Shown here: positions 2,486 through 59,055 of the stretch, in pieces
Layout: every line of letters starts with the position of its first letter
Position numbering within the stretch: the first letter of the stretch is position 1
Source of the DNA: Ostreibacterium oceani
GTDB lineage: Bacteria; Pseudomonadota; Gammaproteobacteria; Cardiobacteriales; Ostreibacteriaceae
Reading direction: 5' to 3'
DNA length: 59,055 nucleotides
Assembly (NCBI RefSeq): GCF_009362845.1
Contig: NZ_WHNW01000012.1
Span: forward strand, 1-59,055
The notes under the pieces: generated by a model
The model's input: only the letters and a program-made list of their open reading frames with translations
What the model was told of the DNA's origin: nothing
Database searches by the model: none
Made by a program: the position numbers and the translations under genes

Positions 2486-2905
2486 CTACATCGTCGCGGT
2501 TGGCAATGGCGATTTGACTTTTTTACCCAAAATTTCCTCGATTTTATCGCGCATCTTTTCGGCATCGCGGCCTAAAATCTGCACGCCAATACCTGGCACG
2601 CGTTTGCCTAATTTTTGTTTAGGGTTTAGCCACATCACTTTGGCGGATACGGCAAATTTGCCACTATCGGCAGGCAGTGTCGCGAGCAAAAACACTTCAT
2701 CGCCTAGCTGATAGTCATCTTCCGTTGGCACAAAGATGCCGCAGCCTTTGACAAACGGCATATAGCAGGCATAAAGCGTTTTATCATCCTTAAAATTTAG
2801 TTTTAAGACACCCCGCTTGGCTAAGGCATCGTTACCTGCCCCCTTGCTTTTTTCGGCGCCCGCTGTTTGACTGCTGTCTGTTGTTGTTGATTTATTGTCT
2901 GTCAT
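2486..2905 (-). CDS. pilZ: PilZ domain protein, type IV pilus biogenesis
   Basis: This 139-aa protein has a disordered, charged N-terminus of about 30 residues rich in Thr, Ser and Lys, then a PilZ beta-barrel domain. Family-typical segments include GVLKLNFKD, GCGIFVPTEDDYQLGDEVFL, KVMWLNPKQK and GIGVQI. The classical c-di-GMP-binding RxxxR and D/NxSxxG motifs are not evident, as in pilus-type PilZ, which acts through protein contacts with the pilus assembly ATPase system. It overlaps the 3' end of holB by 14 bp, so the two are almost certainly cotranscribed. PilU is encoded at 47.7 kb. Confidence 0.9.
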   Translation of the reverse strand: MTDNKSTTTDSSQTAGAEKSKGAGNDALAKRGVLKLNFKDDKTLYACYMPFVKGCGIFVPTEDDYQLGDEVFLLATLPADSGKFAVSAKVMWLNPKQKLGKRVPGIGVQILGRDAEKMRDKIEEILGKKVKSPLPTATM

Positions 2906-3956
2906 GTTGCCAATCCATTAAATAGGTTTTAAGTTGCATCATAAGATTCACGTTGGTCGATTGCAAGCGCGTTACCGTCTCAACGACATCTCGCAAGCGG
3001 TACAATCGGCGTGCGGTCAATCCATGCCAATGTTGATATTGTAACGAATTTTTTCCCGATTTGTCAGTTTGTTCCGCGCTTTTTTGAAACAACAGCATAA
3101 TTGTTGCGTCAATATAGCGCCGATAGCGCACTAAGTACTCGCCTAAATCCGCTTTGGGGATGTCGCTAATGAGTGAATCGACATCACAACGTCCTTGCAT
3201 AAACTGGGCGAATCGATATTTGTCTTGTTTAATTTTTGACACTTTTTCTGGGTCTGAAAATAGCGCAAAAGCGGCCCTGGGCGAATAATCGACTAGCGCT
3301 GCAACCGCACCAATTTCGGCTTCTGTTTTTGCATCACCGACTCTTGCCTCAGCTGAATCTGGTGCCGCCGATTGCGTCAATTGCGTCAATTGCGCCTGTA
3401 ACCAATGTAAAATCACGTGCGTATCAACCGAAGGGTGTTTAAATCGCTGCACACGGCTCATCATGGTATTCAGCACACGCGCAGGTTGCTCAGCCGTTAA
3501 AATAAACACCGTTTTAGCGGGCGGTTCTTCGACATTTTTTAGTAGCGCATTTTGTGCCGCCACGCTCAAACAATCAACACCATCAATTAGCACAATTTGT
3601 GGTTTATCGAATGTCGGACTGCGCCAAATCCTTTGCCCCATTTGACGAACGGAATCAATATTGGCGGTATCTCGAGCCGCTAAGTGCAATACATTTGGAT
3701 GCGTTTTAGCGGCATTGAGATGACAATGCTGACACTGACCGCATAATCGTCTCTCATCGCACAATATCAACTGTGCCATTTGCCACAATAAGGTGTCGTC
3801 GAAATAATCTGAACGCGATCGAAAAAACAACGCCTGCGGCAGGCGGTCAGTCGCTATCATCTCACGTAACTGCATCAGCAATGTCTGATGCCAAGGATAT
3901 TGCGCGGATAGTTGCATGGCGTATTCAATGGGTTGTTTAATGGGGTGCGTTAGCAT
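2892..3956 (-). CDS. holB: DNA polymerase III subunit delta'
   Basis: Delta' is part of the clamp loader that places the beta sliding clamp on DNA. The 354-aa product has the AAA+ fold of the family. A CGQCQHCHLN zinc module lies near residues 72-80, followed by DGVDCLSVAAQNALLKNVEEPP and the sensor segment MSRVQRFK. A normal P-loop is absent, as usual for delta'. The start could be 3956 or the Met at residue 14, whose following YPWHQ resembles other delta' starts. A short coding duplication (LTQLTQ, from repeated TGCGTCAAT) lies near residue 195. The gene heads holB-pilZ-tatD and has a 13-bp repeat array just upstream. Confidence 0.9.
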   Translation of the reverse strand: MLTHPIKQPIEYAMQLSAQYPWHQTLLMQLREMIATDRLPQALFFRSRSDYFDDTLLWQMAQLILCDERRLCGQCQHCHLNAAKTHPNVLHLAARDTANIDSVRQMGQRIWRSPTFDKPQIVLIDGVDCLSVAAQNALLKNVEEPPAKTVFILTAEQPARVLNTMMSRVQRFKHPSVDTHVILHWLQAQLTQLTQSAAPDSAEARVGDAKTEAEIGAVAALVDYSPRAAFALFSDPEKVSKIKQDKYRFAQFMQGRCDVDSLISDIPKADLGEYLVRYRRYIDATIMLLFQKSAEQTDKSGKNSLQYQHWHGLTARRLYRLRDVVETVTRLQSTNVNLMMQLKTYLMDWQHDRQ

Positions 3957-4364: not shown

Positions 4365-4967
4365 ATGGATTATGGTTTTTGGATTGCACTGATATTATTA
4401 GTCGGTATCGGTATTTTTTTAGTCACCATCTACAACAAACTCGTTTCATTACGGAATCGATTTAAAAACGGCTTTGCACAAATCGATGTGCAGCTCAATC
4501 GCCGCTACGATTTAATTCCTAACCTGATTGAAACCACCAAAGCCTACCTGCAACACGAAAAAGAAACTCTAGAGAACGTCATCCAGGCGCGAAACGGCGC
4601 ACTAAACGCAACCCAAGCCGCTGCCGCCCACCCTGAAGACGGTGCCGCGATTAAAAATCTCAACCAAGCAGAAGCCAAACTCGATTCTGCGCTCGGTCGC
4701 TTGTTAATGCTATCAGAATCTTACCCAGATTTAAAAGCCAACCAAACCATACAAGAACTAATGGAATCGCTCAGCAGCACCGAGAATAAAATTGCCTTTG
4801 CGCGCCAAGCTTATAACGATGCCGTTATGCATTACAACGAATACCGCGAGCAATTCCCCAATCTGTTTATTGCCAATAATTTTTCCTTTTCAGCCGCTGA
4901 ATACCTCGAATTGCCTGACGAAAAAATGCGCGAAGCCATTAAAGTCTCTTTTAATAAGGCGCCTTAG
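4365..4967 (+). CDS. lemA: LemA family membrane protein
   Basis: LemA proteins have an N-terminal membrane segment and an extra-membrane bundle of long helices. Their biochemical role is unclear. This 200-aa product has one helix at about residues 6-25, then the family signature [35 protein letters not shown]. An AGGAG sits seven bases before the ATG. The gene directly precedes a membrane M48 protease gene on the same strand. LemA next to an HtpX-like protease is a recurrent pairing and suggests a membrane or envelope quality-control unit. Confidence 0.9.
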   Translation: [200 protein letters not shown]

Positions 4968-5042
4968 CTTGTCATTTAAGGCGTTAATTTGTCGCTTTAA
5001 CCTATTGCCTAACCTATCGCTTTAACCTATCGCCATGCACTA

Positions 5043-7034
5043 ATGGATTTTTTTGAACAACAAGCCCTAGCCAGACGCAAAACCAAATGGCTAGTCGGTT
5101 ATTTTTTAATCGCGTTAACGCTGATTGTGCTAACACTTAACACGGTGGCATGGTTAGTTTATTTACTCCTTTCTCAGCAACAAACACAAGCCGCTATACG
5201 GGCCATTGACAGTAGCATTGACGGCAGCATGGACAGCATCAATCAGACACTGCATTTTGGACAATGGCTTATCACGCCATGGGGCATTGGTATCGCACTA
5301 GGCATTATCGGCATTATCGCGGTAGGTAGCTTGTTTCGTTGGATTAGTTTAAGCGATGGTGGTTTGGCCGTTGCGCGCCTGATGAACGCGCGTTTTATTT
5401 TACCCGACACCAACGATCGGCTAGAAAAACAGCTCATCAACGTGGTCGAGGAAATGGCCATTGCATCAGGCACTTTTGTCCCCCATGTCTATGTCATTGA
5501 CCATGAGCCTGGTATCAATGCGTTTGTCGCAGGAACGACCCAGCAAGACACCGTACTCGTGATTACCCAAGGCGCACTCACACAGCTCAGCCGTGACGAA
5601 CTCCAAGGCGTTGTCGCCCATGAATTTAGCCACATTTTTCATGGCGATGTCAGAACCAACATGCAGTTAATTGCGATTTTAGCCGGTATTCTTTTAATTG
5701 GCCAAGCAGGCCACTATATATTGGATTCTGCCACTCGCATTCGCGGTCGTGATTCTGAAAAAGCCATTGCCGTAACACTATCTATTGGCGCGGCAATGAC
5801 CGTTGTTGGCAGTATCGGCTTGTTTTTTGGTCGATTAATCAAAGCCGCCATCTCTCGACAACGCGAATTTTTAGCCGATGCGTCAGCCGTGCAATTTGCC
5901 CGTGATAACCAAGGGCTTGCGGGCGCATTGATCAAAATCGAGCAACAGGGTGCTTTGTTGCGCAGCGCGCACGCTGAAGAAACCAGCCATATGTGCATTG
6001 CTGAGCCTATTCGCATGGCATTTGGTGGCAGCATGGCATCCCACCCGCCGATTGACAAGCGTCTTGATGCCATTATGCGCCATTGGAAGCTATTTAAGCT
6101 AGAAAAATCACGCGACATCGGCACAGAAAATCAAGCAACACAGGCAGCACAGACAACACCCCAAAAGGCAAAAAATAGCGCTATCGACACCATAGGCAAC
6201 CCAAACATCCAAGACATTCAACAAGCCGCCATCCTAATCGGTGCATTGCCAGAAATACTCAAACAAGCCGCGCACAGCCCGCGTAACGACATCAATGCGA
6301 CCCAAGTCATTCTCGCGTTGTTATTTAGCGACAATGGGCAGTTTAGCGACACCAGTGAAAAGGCGATTGTGGCCGCTTATGATGATGCAACGCTATCTAA
6401 TAGCAAAATGCTCGCCGCGCATTTGCCTGCTGATACCGTTACGTGGCGCTTACCTATCGTTGAAATGGCGATGCCAAGCATCCGCCGCCTCAATCAAACC
6501 GAACAACAACGATTTGGGCATCTATTGCAGCGATTGATTATGGACGATAAGCACGTTACGCTGTTTGAATACGTGCTCTATTGTTTAGTTATTAAATCGA
6601 TTGACCCACAAAAGCCAAACCACCGCTTGATAAAACAATTTGCGGCGGTCGCTGATGACATCCAACAACTCCTTTCAACGGTAATCAACGCCAGCGATTA
6701 TGACGACAACAAGCCACCCAAAGACAGGAAATCGGTCGTATTCACCCAGCAATGGCAACATTTTAGCAGCGAACCACGCCAATTAATCAGCGGTGCATTC
6801 AACGCCACTGCCGTCCATCAGGCATTAAAAAACCTCGATCAACTCGACATCTCTCGCAAAAAAATCTTACTCAGTCGTTTAGAAGCCGTCGCACTCGACG
6901 ATCACCAATTAAATCCTCACGAGGCCGAGCTGCTTCGTGCAATTGCTGAGTATCTCGGTTGCCCCATGCCATTATCCGTACAGCAATATCGCGCGGACAA
7001 ACTAACGCAATTGGATTTACATCAAATTCGCTAG
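5043..7034 (+). CDS. M48 family membrane metalloprotease with long C-terminal extension
   Basis: The protein has two membrane helices (about 15-42 and 80-104) and the zinc motif HEFSH at 193-197. Two further hydrophobic segments follow, then REFLADASAVQFARD, which holds the third zinc ligand. This is the layout of HtpX-type proteases. At 663 aa it is more than twice the size of HtpX. Residues from about 360 form a soluble extension whose last 50 residues (DDHQLNPHEAELLRAIAEYL) resemble the TerB/DjlA-like helical module. That resemblance is inference. It follows lemA by 75 bp of repeated CGCTTTAACCTATCG-like sequence. The substrate is unknown. Confidence 0.88.
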   Translation: MDFFEQQALARRKTKWLVGYFLIALTLIVLTLNTVAWLVYLLLSQQQTQAAIRAIDSSIDGSMDSINQTLHFGQWLITPWGIGIALGIIGIIAVGSLFRWISLSDGGLAVARLMNARFILPDTNDRLEKQLINVVEEMAIASGTFVPHVYVIDHEPGINAFVAGTTQQDTVLVITQGALTQLSRDELQGVVAHEFSHIFHGDVRTNMQLIAILAGILLIGQAGHYILDSATRIRGRDSEKAIAVTLSIGAAMTVVGSIGLFFGRLIKAAISRQREFLADASAVQFARDNQGLAGALIKIEQQGALLRSAHAEETSHMCIAEPIRMAFGGSMASHPPIDKRLDAIMRHWKLFKLEKSRDIGTENQATQAAQTTPQKAKNSAIDTIGNPNIQDIQQAAILIGALPEILKQAAHSPRNDINATQVILALLFSDNGQFSDTSEKAIVAAYDDATLSNSKMLAAHLPADTVTWRLPIVEMAMPSIRRLNQTEQQRFGHLLQRLIMDDKHVTLFEYVLYCLVIKSIDPQKPNHRLIKQFAAVADDIQQLLSTVINASDYDDNKPPKDRKSVVFTQQWQHFSSEPRQLISGAFNATAVHQALKNLDQLDISRKKILLSRLEAVALDDHQLNPHEAELLRAIAEYLGCPMPLSVQQYRADKLTQLDLHQIR

Positions 7035-7125
7035 GCCCTAAATACACTAAGCCACCATCAAGTATTGGCCCACCAAGTATTAGCCCCCAAGTATTGGGCA
7101 TGCGCATCATCTAGTCGCTTGCACG

Positions 7126-7797
7126 TTACAAGCGACTGACTGCCTGAGAAATCACCGCTGCCATTTGCTCAACCGACTGTGTGGCATCAACCACCACACA
7201 GCGCTCAGGATGCGCATGGGCGATAGCTAGATAGCCGTCACGAACACGCTGCATAAACGACAGAGCTTCGGCCTCAAATCGGTCTATCGCTTCACCGCGA
7301 TGCTGGCGACGAACCGCGGCGGCCTCTGCAGGCAAGTCCAGCAAAAAACTCAATGATGGTTGAAAATCATCATGCACTAACGCCGCCAACTGCGTAATCA
7401 CGGCCAAATCAGCACCTCTGGCATAGCCTTGGTAGGCCATTGTTGCATCCGTAAACCGCGAACAAATCACCCAATCACCTGCCGCCACTTTGGGCTTTAA
7501 CACGGTTTGAATATGCTCTGCACGGGCCGCAAACATCAGTAACAACTCGGTCATGGTCGTCATTTGTTGCTCGGTGGACAGCAGTAATTCACGAATTTTC
7601 TCAGAAATTACCGTCCCACCTGGTTCACGCGTGACATGCACGGTTTTTCCTTGCTGGCGCAATGCATTTGCCAGTAACTCAATCTGTGTGCTTTTACCCG
7701 CGCCGTCAATCCCATCAAACGTGATAAATTGTCCTGGCGCTATTTTTTCATGCGGTGCTGGCTGTCGCTGCTGCTTTTGTTCATTCATTGAATTCAT
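7126..7797 (-). CDS. tmk: thymidylate kinase
   Basis: Tmk phosphorylates dTMP to dTDP. The P-loop is in FDGIDGAGKST (about residues 28-38). The dTMP-binding TREPGGTVISEKIRELLL follows, then SRFTDATMAYQGYARG and the lid segment DRFEAEALSFMQRVRDGYL. At 223 aa it is slightly longer than usual because of a Gln/Pro-rich N-terminal tail of about 23 residues. It is the last gene of acpP-fabF-pabB-pabC-mltG-tmk. In many relatives tmk is followed directly by holB. Here holB-pilZ-tatD lies beyond lemA and the M48 gene. Confidence 0.93.
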   Translation of the reverse strand: MNSMNEQKQQRQPAPHEKIAPGQFITFDGIDGAGKSTQIELLANALRQQGKTVHVTREPGGTVISEKIRELLLSTEQQMTTMTELLLMFAARAEHIQTVLKPKVAAGDWVICSRFTDATMAYQGYARGADLAVITQLAALVHDDFQPSLSFLLDLPAEAAAVRRQHRGEAIDRFEAEALSFMQRVRDGYLAIAHAHPERCVVVDATQSVEQMAAVISQAVSRL

Positions 7798-7847
7798 TCA
7801 TTTCCAACTGGTTATTGCGATTACTGAGATTACTGTGGTTATTAGGA

Positions 7848-8918
7848 TTACTGCGATTCCTGCGATTGCTGAAACTGGCGATAGACTTTCACCGCCTCGC
7901 GATGGGCTTCGTACGTCTTGCTAAAGGTATGCCCACCCTTGCCATCTGCGACAAAAAACAAACTCTCGCCGTCGTCGGGCTGCCCTGCCGCAATCAACGA
8001 TGCCATCCCTGGCAAGGCAATCGGTGTCGGTGGCAATCCATGTCGCGTATAGGTATTATAGGGCGTATCGAGGCGCAATTGACTGCGTGTCAAACGCCCA
8101 GTATATTGCTCGCCTAGCCCATAAATCACCGTTGGATCGGTCTGCAATCGCATCCCTTTGGCCATGCGGCGATGAAATACGCCAGAGATTTCATGGCGTT
8201 CACTGTCTAATGCCGTTTCTTTTTCAATAATCGATGCCAAGATAAGCAATTCATAGGGCGTTTTAAGCACAATATCGGGGTGCCGTGCCTGCCAAGCGGT
8301 CTCAAGATTTTTTTTCATCAAATCATGACTTTGTTTTAAAATATCAATATCTTTGGCTTGCTCCGCAAACTGAAAAGTATCTGGAAACAGCAAGCCTTCA
8401 TAATGCGATATTTCGCTACCTAAAATCTCAGGCATGTCTTTGGCAGGCACAAACGTTAGCGTTTGTTCAACTTTTGGGTGCGAACGAATAGCGGCTAGTG
8501 CATCAGCAAATGTCCAACCCTCGATAAACTGCACGCGATAAACAATCGTCTTACCGCTGACAAACAAATCTAGCAGTTCAGGCGGCGTCATCCCCGCGAT
8601 TAATTGGTACTGACCGACCTTTAGCTGGTGCGCTTGCCCTTGTTGCTGGGCCCAAAACTTGATGTACGCCGCATAGCGTTTATTTTGAAAATTAGCCAAG
8701 GCTTGGCCGTTACTCCCTTGACCTAACACGCCTTGGCCTTGCAACCGCCTAACAACGGTGGCAACGCTGTCTCCTGACTGGATACTAAAAGTTTGCGCCG
8801 CCGCATCATCGACCGCGCTAGCTCGTATAAAACGATGATAATCGGTATAAAGCCAAACGCCTGCTGCCAACGCAACAAAAATTAACAGCAGCAAAAAACG
8901 AATCAAAAATCGGCGCAT
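7848..8918 (-). CDS. mltG: endolytic transglycosylase MltG
   Basis: MltG (YceG) cleaves nascent glycan strands at the inner membrane and sets their length. The 356-aa product has a single N-terminal membrane helix (residues 5-25), a LysM-like stretch and the catalytic domain with ASIIEKETALDSER, in which the first Glu is the expected catalytic residue. It ends with the family segments DTPYNTYTRHGLPPTPI and LFFVADGKGGHTFSKTY. Its start overlaps the end of pabC by 16 bp. The 50-bp gap to tmk is made of degenerate GATTACTG repeats. Confidence 0.93.
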   Translation of the reverse strand: MRRFLIRFLLLLIFVALAAGVWLYTDYHRFIRASAVDDAAAQTFSIQSGDSVATVVRRLQGQGVLGQGSNGQALANFQNKRYAAYIKFWAQQQGQAHQLKVGQYQLIAGMTPPELLDLFVSGKTIVYRVQFIEGWTFADALAAIRSHPKVEQTLTFVPAKDMPEILGSEISHYEGLLFPDTFQFAEQAKDIDILKQSHDLMKKNLETAWQARHPDIVLKTPYELLILASIIEKETALDSERHEISGVFHRRMAKGMRLQTDPTVIYGLGEQYTGRLTRSQLRLDTPYNTYTRHGLPPTPIALPGMASLIAAGQPDDGESLFFVADGKGGHTFSKTYEAHREAVKVYRQFQQSQESQ

Positions 8919-9781
8919 GGGTGATCAACCATTTGTTTAAACGGATGGACTGCATCGACTGAAAACACTTTATCGATGGATTGAATGTGTCGGACGGGTT
9001 GCACACCCATCACGGCATTGGTTACAAAAACGGCATCGGCTCGCGCCAGCATCTGATAATCAATCGGCATCACCGCGACATCGATGTTTTTTTCTTGGCA
9101 TTTATCCAATAAGTGGGCGCGCATCGTCCCTGCAACACCCGCTTGGGTTAAATCTGGTGTTAACAAGCGGCGGTCTGCGACTAAAAACACATTACTGATA
9201 AGCCCTTCGATTAGCAGCCCTGTCGTATCAAACAAAAGCCCTTCGTGATAATCTTTATCCGCTGGCTCGCGCCTAGCTAGCACATACTCTAGGCGATTGC
9301 AGTGCTTCATGCCTGCCAATACAGGCTGCTGCGCCAATTTCATCTGACAAATACGCACATTAAGCCCTTGGTACAGGGCGCTATTATACGCATACGGAGA
9401 CACCGAGTAGCTGAAATAGCACGGCTGTGAGTCAATGCTTTGATAACCCCGCATGCCTTCGCCTCTAGACAATATCAATTTAATCACCACATAACGAGAA
9501 TCTGAACAGGGGATGTCCGTCAATGCTTGCTGGATAATCGCTTCAAAGTCGGCTTTCGTTAACAATGGCATCCCGAGACGTTGACAGCCGCTAGACAACC
9601 GCCGCCAATGATAATCGCGCTGGTGTACGCGCCCGTCAATCACCAGCATCGTTTCAAAAATACCATCGCCATATTGCACCAAGCTATCATTGTGGGTGTA
9701 CGTTTGGATAACTTTAAACGGCGGCGCTTTAAGCGACTGGGCTTTAAGCGGCTGAGATTTAGAAGGCTGAATAGCAGACAT
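8903..9781 (-). CDS. pabC: aminodeoxychorismate lyase
   Basis: PabC converts 4-amino-4-deoxychorismate to p-aminobenzoate and pyruvate with PLP, for folate synthesis. This class IV PLP-fold protein of 292 aa shows QYGDGIFETMLVIDGRV near the N-terminus. The lysine region GMKHCNRLEYVLARRE, the ISNVFLV segment and AGVAGTMRAHLLDKC follow. The first 25 residues contain a local LKAQ/SLKAPPFK-type duplication. Its ATG overlaps the pabB stop by one base and its end overlaps mltG, so translation is probably coupled along the operon. Confidence 0.92.
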   Translation of the reverse strand: MSAIQPSKSQPLKAQSLKAPPFKVIQTYTHNDSLVQYGDGIFETMLVIDGRVHQRDYHWRRLSSGCQRLGMPLLTKADFEAIIQQALTDIPCSDSRYVVIKLILSRGEGMRGYQSIDSQPCYFSYSVSPYAYNSALYQGLNVRICQMKLAQQPVLAGMKHCNRLEYVLARREPADKDYHEGLLFDTTGLLIEGLISNVFLVADRRLLTPDLTQAGVAGTMRAHLLDKCQEKNIDVAVMPIDYQMLARADAVFVTNAVMGVQPVRHIQSIDKVFSVDAVHPFKQMVDHPCADF

Positions 9782-11130
9782 TATCGCTCCAATGCTTTGA
9801 GTAAGCCTTTGGCCTTGTTTCGTGTTTCCGCCAATTCTGATTCGGCAACAGAGTCATAAACAACGCCCGCGCCTGCACGAAACAAAACCCCATCATTATG
9901 GCACGCAAACGAGCGAATCAAAATATTGGTATCCATATCGCCGTTGTGATTAACATAACCAACAGAGCCCGTATAAACACCGCGGTAGGTTTGTTCTAAT
10001 TCGTGGATAATTTCCATACATCGGACTTTGGGGCAGCCCGTTATTGTACCACCAGGAAACACAGCACGAATCACGTCTGCAGGCGTTATATCATCACGTA
10101 ATTGCCCCACGACATTCGACACAATATGATGCACGTGTGCATAGGATTCAATCACCATTAATTCATCCACGGTGACGGTACCTGCTTGACAAATGCGGCC
10201 CAAATCATTGCGCTCTAAGTCGATTAGCATAATATGCTCGGCGCGTTCTTTAAAATGTCCTAGCAGCTCCGTTGAAAAGGCTTTATCTGTCACTTCACTG
10301 TCGCCTCTGGGGCGTGTGCCAGCGATGGGGCGTGTTTCAGCGCGTCCATTGGTTACCGAAACCAACCGCTCTGGCGAAGACGATACAATAGAAACACCCG
10401 GCAAATGACAACTCGCCGCAAACGGTGCGGGATTATTCTGTCGAAGCTGAGTATAAAGTTGGTCGGTCGCGGTTTGTGGCATCGCAAACTGCCACGCTCT
10501 GGATAAATTAACCTGAAAAACATCGCCTTCGATGATGTAGTTTCTTGATTTTTCAACCCCTGATAAAAAACGACTTGGCTCATCCTCTTGGAGGTTAATC
10601 AGCGGCAACGGATTCGCTGCGATGGCTTCTGCCGCTGCTGCCACCTTTGCTGCTGTCAGGCGAACACAGTCAACACAGTCAGCCATTGTTTGCAGTGCGG
10701 CATTAGCGTCACCACCATCAACGACCAAGTAAGTCAGTTTCGCGACATGGTCAACGACAATTGCCGCAGGGCAGCGTGCCGCAAAAGCCACAGGATAAGG
10801 CGGTGGCGTGAGCGATAAGCTGGGTTCAATCTGCTCGGCAAGCTCATAGGCAAAAAAAACAAACCAGCCACCGCGAAAAGGAATATGCGCTGGGATACTG
10901 GCATCTGCTTGCGCTTGATGCGCCAACCAATTTTCATTAAAGCCGGCTAAGAAATCCGCCTCGCTAGGATGCGTTAATGCATGGGTTTCGCTGGGGCGAT
11001 AAAACAGCAGGCTGTAACGCCCTGTTTTGTCGTTTTTAGCAACAGATTCAAGCAAATAAGGAAATTTATCTGGCCATCGCTGGTGCAGTTGACACACATC
11101 AACTTCGCCCGCTAACTGCTGATATGCCAT
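9781..11130 (-). CDS. pabB: aminodeoxychorismate synthase component I
   Basis: PabB makes 4-amino-4-deoxychorismate from chorismate using ammonia from PabA. The 449-aa product has the chorismate-binding core: EGDVFQVNLSRAW, RPIAGTRPRG, DLERNDLGRIC and GGTITGCPKVRCMEIIHELE. It ends in AETRNKAKGLLKALER. No PabA domain is fused and no pabA is seen in the window. It lies between fabF and pabC, where many relatives have only pabC. Confidence 0.92.
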   Translation of the reverse strand: MAYQQLAGEVDVCQLHQRWPDKFPYLLESVAKNDKTGRYSLLFYRPSETHALTHPSEADFLAGFNENWLAHQAQADASIPAHIPFRGGWFVFFAYELAEQIEPSLSLTPPPYPVAFAARCPAAIVVDHVAKLTYLVVDGGDANAALQTMADCVDCVRLTAAKVAAAAEAIAANPLPLINLQEDEPSRFLSGVEKSRNYIIEGDVFQVNLSRAWQFAMPQTATDQLYTQLRQNNPAPFAASCHLPGVSIVSSSPERLVSVTNGRAETRPIAGTRPRGDSEVTDKAFSTELLGHFKERAEHIMLIDLERNDLGRICQAGTVTVDELMVIESYAHVHHIVSNVVGQLRDDITPADVIRAVFPGGTITGCPKVRCMEIIHELEQTYRGVYTGSVGYVNHNGDMDTNILIRSFACHNDGVLFRAGAGVVYDSVAESELAETRNKAKGLLKALER

Positions 11131-55537: not shown

Positions 55538-55927
55538 TTAGTCGCCATTTCTCTGGTTTGATTTAATGGGAAATTGCATCTCATTAAAGTTCCTCATTCT
55601 AGTAGCGCTTTCAATACACAAAGGATCCCCTGCGTCATCAGTACTTGCATAAAAGTCGAGCAGCCGTATCTTATCGCCAGCATTTTTATCCAATTTCAAG
55701 CTATAACGTTTTAAATTAACTGATGTGGGATGTTTTTTCAAATCAACAGAAATATAGTACAGCTTTCCGTTGCCCCATCGTTTCTCCTTTTTTATTATTT
55801 TTAAATCAGCGACAACGTCCCAAGGGATATATAAAAAATAAGCATAGCTGCTGGAAAAAATAGTTATCCATTTTTTTTCTATAAAATAAATACCATTGAT
55901 ATCCCAAAAAACAGAAGAGAAGAAATC
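55538..55927 (-). pseudogene. 3' remnant of an unknown gene
   Basis: An open frame of 129 codons, with a normal stop and its own terminator, runs through WDINGIYFIEKKWITIF, YIPWDVVADLKIIKKEKRW and GDKIRLLDFYASTDDAGDP to KSNQRNGD. It has no ATG or GTG in its first part. The only late start is a TTG at 55741. The frame is closed upstream by a TAA that lies within a 14-bp match to the IS481-type tip. I read it as a gene that lost its 5' end in an IS-related event. No family is recognised. Confidence 0.5.
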
Positions 55928-55932
55928 TTACA
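55919..55932 (-). mobile_element. possible IS481-type tip remnant
   Basis: On the minus strand TGTAAGATTTCTTC matches exactly the outermost 14 bases of the IS tip at position 139, then diverges. It sits at the 5' edge of the truncated gene. The stretch 55933-56284 shows no gene I can support. Confidence 0.45.
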
Positions 55933-56318: not shown

Positions 56319-56484
56319 ATTACAAGCTGCTAGTGGGTTGTTAATTACAGGGCGATGTGTTGGTTGCAGGGTGTTGGTTGCCATTGATTTAAAAAAATGT
56401 GTAGCGAGAGATGCGTTGCGAGAGACTTATTTGGCGTATCAGTAGCTAATCGAGTTAAACAAAAAGTTAAAAAAGGTAAAAAAC
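56319..56484 (+). repeat. duplicated leader block, copy 1
   Basis: This leader, from ATTACAAGCTGCTAGTGGG to the start codon, is repeated with small changes at 57774-57946. It contains GCGAGAGATGCGTTGCGAGAGA, an internal repeat conserved in both copies. The conserved noncoding block may hold translation or mRNA-stability control; this is inference. Confidence 0.85.
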
Positions 56485-57597
56485 ATGATAAAGAGCAAAA
56501 TAAAGCACGTATTCGTTAAATGGTCAGTGGTTGTGTTGTTATTGACGGTAGGCAAGCTAGCACAGGCACAGATTACGGTAGGGTCTACGGATAATTTCAT
56601 CACCACATGGAACACTGAGGCACAAACCTCGCTTATCATCCCGACCACGGGTACGGGTTATAATTTCACGCTGTATTGGGAAGAGGTTGGTAATGCGGCG
56701 AACAATGGCACACTAACGGCCCAAACGGGGAATCCCACCATTACGGGATTGACGGTAAATACCGATTATCGTGTCGAAATCACGGGCGCTTTTCCGCGTA
56801 TTTTTATTAGCTCTCAACCGCCACAAAGGACGCAAATCCGCACAGTCTCTCAGTGGGGCACGATTGCATGGCAATCCATGGTAAGCGCTTTTTCAGGAAC
56901 AAGTAATTTACAGGTGACTGCGACAGACACCCCTGATTTATCAGCCGTCACTGATTTAACAGGCATGTTTGTAAATACTCAGGCGATGACCGGAGCTGGC
57001 GCCAACTGGGATTGGGATGTCAGCAGTGTGACGAATATGCAGTTAATGTTTCAAAGTGCTGTCAGTTTTAACCAAGACTTGGGTGATTGGGATACCAGCA
57101 GTGTGACAAATATGGAAGCTATGTTTTCCAACGCATTAAATTTTAACCAAGACATTGGCGATTGGGATACCAGTAGTGTGACGAATATGGAGTTCATATT
57201 TTTGGATGCATTAGATTTTAACCAAGACTTAGGCGATTGGGATTTAAGCAGTGTGACATCGACTAGTCTTATGCTATTTAACTCAGGGCTTGATTGTGGC
57301 AACTACTCGCTAACATTAATTGGCTGGGCCGCTAACGCAAATACCCCTGATAATCTAGCCTTAAGTAGCGTATCACCATTGCAGTATGGTACTGGAGCAG
57401 AAGCCGCGCGTGATGCCTTGATAGCTAAGGGTTGGAATATTACTGGCGATACACTGGATGCGACCTGCGTTATACCGACCAATACTACTGGCAATGCTGC
57501 AGCGATTCCGACGGTATCTTGGTGGGCGCTGTTAATGACGGTGTTTGGTGTGATGGGAATTGCTGGGGTTGCTCGTAGACGCAGCAATAGCTATTAA
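56485..57597 (+). CDS. BspA-like (DUF285) surface protein with IPTL-CTERM-like anchor, copy 1
   Basis: A signal peptide ends AQA near residue 28. A beta-rich N-terminal domain (to about 115) precedes 25-residue DUF285 repeats of the form [18 protein letters not shown]. Three full repeats and a degenerate one span about residues 178-275. The C-terminus [20 protein letters not shown] followed by ARRRS fits the IPTL-CTERM sorting signal: short motif, membrane helix, Arg tail. The protein is probably exported and processed at the envelope. BspA-like repeats in other bacteria are linked to adhesion. The next gene is a near duplicate. Confidence 0.88.
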
Positions 57598-57773
57598 CAT
57601 TAGCGAGTATTAAGCAAAACTTCGCTTAGCAGAAAATTTAGCAGGAAATTTTAGTAGCCAAGGGAAATATTAACAAATGGTAATCAATTAAGCGGTGAAT
57701 CAAGTCGCTGCTGTGGTTATTTTTTGCTAATATGTGATAGACATAATGTCTCATGGTGAGTGATTATGTTTTG

Positions 57774-57946
57774 ATTACAAGCTGCTAGTGGGTTGTTAAT
57801 TGCAGGGCGTTTTTTGCGTCACTAGTTGCCATCATTGGTTGCCATTGATTTAAAAAAATGTGTAGCGAGAGATGCGTTGCGAGAGACTTATTTGGCGTGT
57901 CAGTAGCTAATCGAGTTAAACAAAAGGTTAAAAAAAGTAAAAGGAC
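57774..57946 (+). repeat. duplicated leader block, copy 2
   Basis: It is the second copy of the leader at 56319-56484. It has a replaced middle section (GCAGGGCGTTTTTTGCGTC) and an identical stretch TTTAAAAAAATGTGTAGCG onward. Its upstream sequence (57598-57773) is unrelated to that of copy 1. Confidence 0.85.
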
Positions 57947-58920
57947 ATGAGAAAGAACAAAATAAAGCACGTATTCGTTAAATGGTCAGTGGTTGTATTG
58001 TTATTGACGGTAGGCAAGCTAGCACAGGCACAGATTACGGTAGGGTCTACAGATAATTTCATCACCACATGGAACACTGAGGCACAAACCTCGATTATCA
58101 TCCCGACCACGGGTACAGGTTATAATTACACGCTGTATTGGGAAGAGGTTGGTAATGCGGCGAACAATGGCACACTAACGGCCCAAACGGGGAATCCCAC
58201 CATTACGGGATTGACGGTAAATACCGATTATCGTGTCGAAATCACGGGTGCTTTTCCGCGTATTTTTATTAGCGGTCAACCGCCACAAAGGACGCAAATC
58301 CGCACAGTCTCTCAGTGGGGCACGATTGCATGGCAATCCATGGAGGCCGCTTTTTTGAGTGCACTTAATCTACAGGTGACTGCGACAGACACCCCTGATT
58401 TATCAGCCGTCACTGATTTAACAGGCATGTTTGTAAATACTCCGGCGATGACCGGAGCTGGCGCCAACTGGGATTGGGATGTCAGCAGTGTGACGAATAT
58501 GCAGAGTATGTTTAGCGGCGCACCCAATTTTAACCAAGACATTGGTGATTGGGATACCAGCAGTGTGACAAATATGGAAGCTATGTTTTCCAACGCATTA
58601 AATTTTAACCAAGACATTGGCGATTGGGATGTCAGCAATGTGACGAATATGGAAGGTATATTTCAACAAGCAGCCAATTTTAACGGAGATGTTGGTAATT
58701 GGGATACCAGTAGTGTGACGGATATGGGGACTATGTTTGGCGGCGCATCCAGCTTTAACCAAGACATTGGCGATTGGGATACCAGTAGTGTGACGAATAT
58801 GGATTTTATGTTTACCAGCGCATCCAGCTTCAACCAAGACTTGGGTGATTGGGATACCAGTAGTGTGACGAATATGGAGTTCATGTTTTTGGATGCAGTA
58901 GATTTTAACCAAGACTTAGG
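57947..58920 (+). pseudogene. BspA-like (DUF285) surface protein, copy 2, interrupted by IS
   Basis: The first 130 residues are almost identical to copy 1, including the signal peptide. It then has at least six 25-residue DUF285 repeats (against three in copy 1), with units such as [19 protein letters not shown] shared and others unique ([19 protein letters not shown]). At 58921, within the sixth repeat, an IS481-type element begins. The reading frame continues ten codons into the IS and stops at 58951. The C-terminal sorting signal is lost, so the product would not be anchored as in copy 1. Confidence 0.85.
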
Positions 58921-59055
58921 TGTAAGAAATCCTCGCGTTGTTTACAGTTAGGTTAACTCAAAGTAGTGACTAAGTATCTCATAAGGTGTTGCGTTGTTCA
59001 AACTTTTGTGCGGTTTGACAGTATTGTAAAAATTGATGAATCGATTTAATTCCAA
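58921..59055 (-). mobile_element. IS481-type insertion sequence, transposase-end side (partial)
   Basis: The tip starts exactly at 58921 with TGTAAGAAATCCTCGCG and continues into the shared GTTGTTTACAG, pairing with the tip at 139. The rest of the element lies beyond the window. Orientation is the same as that of the left-end fragment. Confidence 0.88.
58948..59055 (-). CDS. IS481-type transposase, C-terminal fragment
   Basis: The minus strand entering from the window edge encodes 35 residues to a TAA at 58950, including [20 protein letters not shown]. This is the conserved end of rve-type DDE transposases (usually YN-RPH-SL-TP-E). It is followed after 27 bp by the IS tip. Confidence 0.88.

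Follow-up and report, generated by a model that had tools for sequence, protein, structure and literature searches.

Tandem DUF285/PARCEL repeat-protein genes with different repeat numbers in Ostreibacterium oceani

Closest described systems and the gene pair

PARCEL repeats, which fall under DUF285, have been described as belonging to surface repeat proteins, and it was suggested that some PARCEL open reading frames act as reservoirs of variants (Roske et al., 2010; PMC2996958). Dyad symmetry was found in the PARCEL repeat DNA with the palindrome mode of MEME (PMC2996958). The genes analyzed here resemble this group in having 25-residue, 75-bp tandem repeats of variable number, a patchy distribution and export signals. 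They differ from it in an exosortase-H-type tag. Dyad symmetry was not found by simple tests, which are distinct from the MEME approach: no inverted repeat of at least 10 bp within 120 bp was found in the repeat DNA, and its folding z-score was -0.52. Named relatives are mostly from Bacteroidota and share with the pair the N-terminal domain, a capping repeat, the DUF285 array and a cap domain at about 35-49% identity. However, of the ten homologues scanned, eight carry a T9SS type A sorting domain (TIGR04183) at the C-terminus, whereas the intact gene described below ends in an IPTL-like tag. A search of the open-access literature for XrtH or IPTL-CTERM returned nothing.

The window, i.e. the whole stretch of DNA analyzed, corresponds to contig C12 (59,055 bp); the draft assembly comprises 36 contigs and 2.18 Mb. 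Near its right end two + strand genes lie side by side (56485-57597 and 57947-58920), referred to here as copy 1 and copy 2. The features of this region are as follows:

56319-56484, + strand: copy 1 leader, by alignment close to the copy 2 leader apart from one divergent stretch
56485-57597, + strand: copy 1, intact gene of 370 aa with signal peptide, FN3-like domain, DUF285 array, C-cap and sorting tag
56485-56571, + strand: copy 1 signal peptide, called by eye from the sequence
56593-56793, + strand: copy 1 FN3-like N-terminal domain (weak Pfam fn3 match; Foldseek FN3 matches with probability of about 0.9 and non-significant E)
56878-56913, + strand: copy 1 diverged tract in capping repeat R0, 12 differences in 36 bases from copy 2
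57010-57234, + strand: copy 1 DUF285/PARCEL units, 3 x 75 bp
57280-57498, + strand: copy 1 C-terminal cap domain of the DUF285 array, kept in homologues, model pLDDT >90
57505-57594, + strand: copy 1 IPTL-like C-terminal sorting tag
57774-57946, + strand: copy 2 leader, by alignment
57947-58920, + strand: copy 2, gene truncated within the last of its six DUF285/PARCEL units, lacking cap domain and sorting tag
58472-58920, + strand: copy 2 six 75-bp units, units 3-5 being those absent from copy 1
58914-58920: ACTTAGG, expected 7-bp target duplication of the IS, with no partner flank in the assembly
58921-59055, - strand: end of an IS481-family element (3' end of the transposase gene), within which the contig stops

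The copy 2 open reading frame extends from 57947 to 58951 (334 aa), its final residues running into the IS. A first-pass annotation of this DNA had proposed that the adjacent genes share leader, signal peptide and N-terminal domain, and the alignment agrees: the first 132 codons of the two copies differ at 10 nucleotides.

The gene was absent from all 56 related genomes, 31 of which belong to the same order, and a relative was present in eight of 368 other genomes sampled from the class. One of these eight genomes has the same gene as an Ectothiorhodospiraceae MAG, by which the organism of the window can be assigned to the Gammaproteobacteria. With a crude pattern, an IPTL-like tail was found in none of 68 DUF285 ORFs from homologous loci, nor was one seen in the readable class relatives. 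An ectodomain that is the same as in the homologues and is combined with a different sorting tail is in line with transfer between lineages, as has been proposed for PARCELs.

The AlphaFold2 model of copy 1 has a mean pLDDT of 85.9, with 273 of 370 residues above 90. It predicts an LRR-like solenoid, as in BspA-like LRR proteins, and the best VIA match was Treponema pallidum TpLRR (PDB 6mlx; Z 13.0, 3.8 A over 207 residues), although by the tool's own caveat a Z of 13 may reflect merely a common repeat-protein arrangement. Copy 1 gave no significant match to a solved structure, either by sequence or in a Foldseek search with the model. Since such a Z is not rare among repeat proteins and Foldseek returned no significant match, the likeness to TpLRR is supportive only, and in that sense the predicted fold agrees with the label "BspA-like" given in the first-pass annotation.

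Repeat arrays and mosaic tracts

Both proteins contain tandem 25-residue repeats that score above the cut-offs of Pfam DUF285 (PF03382; 174 bits for copy 1 and 213 bits for copy 2, cut-off 25) and of the NCBIfam PARCEL repeat (TIGR02167; 43 and 104 bits, respectively, cut-off 30), which places them among the DUF285/PARCEL repeat proteins. The repeat unit is exactly 75 bp long. Copy 1 has three units. Copy 2 has six, of which the last ends one base early at the IS. These counts agree with the earlier estimate of about three versus at least six. The units had also been called near-identical. This holds for corresponding units across the copies, which are 97-100% identical, but not for units within one array, where identity is 67-83%.

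The matrix of unit identities shows how the two arrays correspond. Unit 2 is 100% identical between the copies, and unit 3 of copy 1 matches unit 6 of copy 2 at 97%. Copy 1 tracks unit 2 of copy 2 over 84 mismatch-free bases and thereafter follows unit 6, the switch point falling in GATTGGGAT, which is common to both copies. Copy 1 thus lacks units 3-5 of copy 2, which amount to 225 bp, an exact three-unit jump in repeat register. Because units 3-5 of copy 2 were not recently duplicated from other units, the change is more simply read as a loss from copy 1, a direction given by parsimony only. The earlier suggestion that the repeats allow recombination within and between copies is borne out for the two copies, between which a repeat-register jump makes the different numbers, and recombination between their repeats is well supported by the sequence comparison.

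Upstream of the switch point, the copies were compared over 684 shared bases and differ at 37 positions. Of these differences, 26 fall in two tracts of 75 nt combined, one in the capping repeat (R0) and one in unit 1 (R1), and the densest 33 nt hold 12 differences, compared with at most nine in 2000 random placements. Most differences are amino-acid changes at variable repeat positions, and ten codons have two or more altered bases; unit 2, in contrast, is the same in both copies. Short-tract replacement by recombination with other copies would fit this pattern better than point mutation; no gene-conversion donor for the R0 and R1 tracts was found among the loci compared.

The IS481-family element and the end of copy 2

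The element that begins at 58921, with its transposase on the - strand, matched the IS481 profile at 146.7 bits, a score from a fragmentary copy that misses the full-length cut-off of 224 and lies far above those of other IS families. Together with the 7-bp target duplications described below, the transposase match assigns the element to the IS481 family. The same IS occurs at many sites in the genome, and contigs C3, C7, C8, C10, C11 and C12 end about 135-140 bases inside copies of it. As several contigs stop inside this multi-copy IS, the end of the window is an assembly break. Five sets of IS flanks could be paired by 7-bp target duplications, namely the ends of C3 and C8 (GTTTATG), the end of C11 and the start of C3 (GATAAGC), the end of C10 and the start of C5 (CCTAACG), a C4 flank and the start of C12 (GTTTAGG), and a C1 flank and the start of C14 (AATAAGT).

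The ACTTAGG flank of copy 2 has no partner among the IS flanks of the assembly. DNA and protein searches of the entire assembly for the rest of copy 2 matched nothing but copy 1 and diverged genes on contig C8. Since the flank is unpaired and the tail is found nowhere in the assembly, the tail of copy 2 has probably been deleted; the observations suggest, but do not prove, an IS-linked deletion. The assembly is a draft, and the tail could lie on a small lost contig flanked by two IS copies. The first-pass annotation had stated that an IS removed the sorting signal of copy 2: the truncation by an IS481-family element is real, whereas completed loss of that signal rests on the absence of the tail from a draft.

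Several joins across the IS were considered. Linking C12 to C8, both of which end in the IS near DUF285 genes, was rejected because C8 pairs with the end of C3 by GTTTATG, and a link from C12 to the beginning of C3, the region of the exosortase H gene, was rejected because that end pairs with C11 by GATAAGC. The flanks on C7 and C4 were checked for a reading frame running from one to the other, and the result was unconvincing. Flanks within C4 and C1 that were left unpaired may be partners. Two IS copies on these contigs (C4:24822-25627 and C1:145549-146658) contain N or doubled parts, and their flanks share no target duplication; such copies could have arisen by IS-IS recombination or could reflect joins made in scaffolding. 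At the left end of the window, positions 1-146 belong to the same IS481 element and form its other end; GTTTAGG comes next, and then a sodium:alanine-symporter-like gene that is split by the IS, its first part lying on C4. Before copy 1, 14 bases (GAAGAAATCTTACA) at 55919-55932 match the IS end exactly, which is at chance level (E 0.35).

Sorting tag, exosortase H and the history of the family

Copy 1 ends in an IPTL-like motif followed by a hydrophobic stretch and RRR, and the genome encodes both exosortase H (XrtH, TIGR04177; 134.7 bits, cut-off 86), near the start of contig C3, and, in an adjoining gene, the XrtH-associated membrane protein (XrtH_assoc, NF041730; 150.6 bits, cut-off 35). 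The search for a matching sorting enzyme, which the first-pass annotation had recommended, was therefore successful. The genome shares with the IPTL-CTERM/exosortase H system these two proteins and, in copy 1, a tag with IP[ST] motif, hydrophobic stretch and basic end; the difference is that the tag of copy 1 is of a local variant form. Against the IPTL-CTERM profile (TIGR04174) this tag scored 9.2 bits, and because this falls below the cut-off of 20.5 bits, copy 1 lies outside the curated family. The label IPTL-CTERM assigned earlier is thus appropriate to the make-up of the tag but not by the profile.

A tag profile built from seven tags of this genome matched further proteins outside the seven, examples lying on contigs C9 (two), C14, C1, C11, C6 and C13. 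Judged from this profile search and from the ends of open reading frames, a local form of roughly [IV]P[ST]x[SN]xW[SA]LL is common to about 16 proteins (copy 1 and about fifteen others), and several unrelated proteins of the genome have the same tag, as in an exosortase H system. Because the XrtH system is encoded and the local tag is common to these proteins, copy 1 is likely to work as an exosortase H substrate. No member of the exosortase H family was matched in 31 other genomes of the same order. A protein encoded on contig C2 (positions 2868-3842 of the locus L047) has the best-scoring IPTL-type tag (20.5 bits) and combines a signal peptide nearly that of the C8 genes with another passenger domain. 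On contig C19, two adjacent proteins of the PD40 beta-propeller type with nearly identical IPSTSVMGLL tags are possibly another tandem duplicate pair of exosortase H substrates.

The first-pass annotation had also asked for further copies. Contig C8 (positions 4754-10934 of the locus L031) carries a cluster of three more surface-protein genes built on a related plan; DUF285 is present in two of them, and the third shares its signal peptide and C-terminal tag with its neighbours but has another passenger domain. All three are disrupted, by one in-frame stop and two frameshifts, one frameshift lying in a T run. Their DNA identity to the gene pair is about 65-70%. As copy 2 is cut by the IS and the C8 genes are all disrupted, no DUF285 gene in the genome other than copy 1 is intact. 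That all three C8 genes are disrupted points to decay more than to a functioning variation system, and such decay speaks against ongoing surface variation between isolates, the role that the first-pass annotation had in mind with a way to vary a surface protein.

The genes, the repeats, the breakpoint, the IS and the exosortase H genes can be read directly from the assembly, and from them we propose a history that, taken as a whole, we regard as probable. A gene for an exported repeat protein, composed of an FN3-like domain, a BspA/TpLRR-type solenoid of 25-residue DUF285/PARCEL repeats, a cap and an exosortase-H-type tag, would have undergone recent tandem duplication, giving rise to copies 1 and 2. 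Homologous recombination between units after the duplication may then have shortened copy 1 by exactly three units; a gain of three by copy 2 is less likely. The short tracts R0 and R1 may have been swapped with copies since gone from the genome. An IS481-family element would later have inserted in unit 6 of copy 2, the tail of which was lost, most simply by IS-linked deletion. It is probable that exosortase H, whose gene lies elsewhere in the genome, cuts copy 1 and attaches it, whereas copy 2, if expressed, would be exported yet unanchored. The order of these events and the deletion are deduced, as are processing by XrtH, a place at the cell surface and any binding role of copy 1.

Alternative readings concern the origin of the differences and the present state of the family. 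The pair or its repeat difference could be an artefact of assembly, given that the contig ends in a multi-copy IS and that short reads assemble repeats poorly. The copies, however, differ in leader, tracts and repeat number and lie on one contig with unique sequence between them, and collapsed repeats would be expected to obscure differences of this kind, not to produce them, which leaves this explanation very improbable. Targeted mutagenesis by a diversity-generating retroelement could account for diverged tracts in which the differences occupy variable repeat positions and several codons have changed at more than one base. We consider this next to negligible: it is disfavoured by the lack of any match to reverse transcriptase (PF00078) in the genome, the differences are not confined to one template base, and units 2 and 3/6 are nearly unchanged.

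A further reading is active surface variation, with one expressed and anchored copy and the truncated or broken copies serving as a recombination store of repeats. The mosaic tracts, the repeat jump between the copies, the additional broken paralogues and the variant reservoirs suggested by Roske et al. (PMC2996958) speak for it, but the C8 paralogues reach only about 65-70% DNA identity to the pair and supply no donor for the two diverged tracts, and a diversity-generating system would lack its reverse transcriptase; we regard this reading as unlikely. A more serious competitor, though short of an even chance, is plain decay, in which a horizontally acquired family has been broken by IS, stops and frameshifts and has no present role in variation. 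The IS cut in copy 2, the three disrupted C8 genes, the many IS copies in the genome and the absence of the gene from all 31 other genomes searched in the order would all be expected from decay. Against it stand the intact copy 1, with few changes in signal peptide and N-terminal domain, and the intact exosortase H and its partner, for which the genome has several further candidate substrates, likewise intact. Past recombination within the family and its decay are compatible, and as the present state of the family, decay is at least as likely as active variation.

It is a speculative idea, to which we give little weight, that a T9SS-type DUF285 surface protein has moved into a gammaproteobacterial exosortase H pathway and that its solenoid is varied by recombination between tandem and dispersed copies. 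If true, there would be a variable surface repertoire sorted by an exosortase. The occurrence of the same ectodomain with a T9SS tail in Bacteroidota and with an exosortase-H-type tail here suggests that passenger and anchor have been exchanged as modules, and the exact three-unit change between two young copies is direct evidence that PARCEL arrays change in repeat register.
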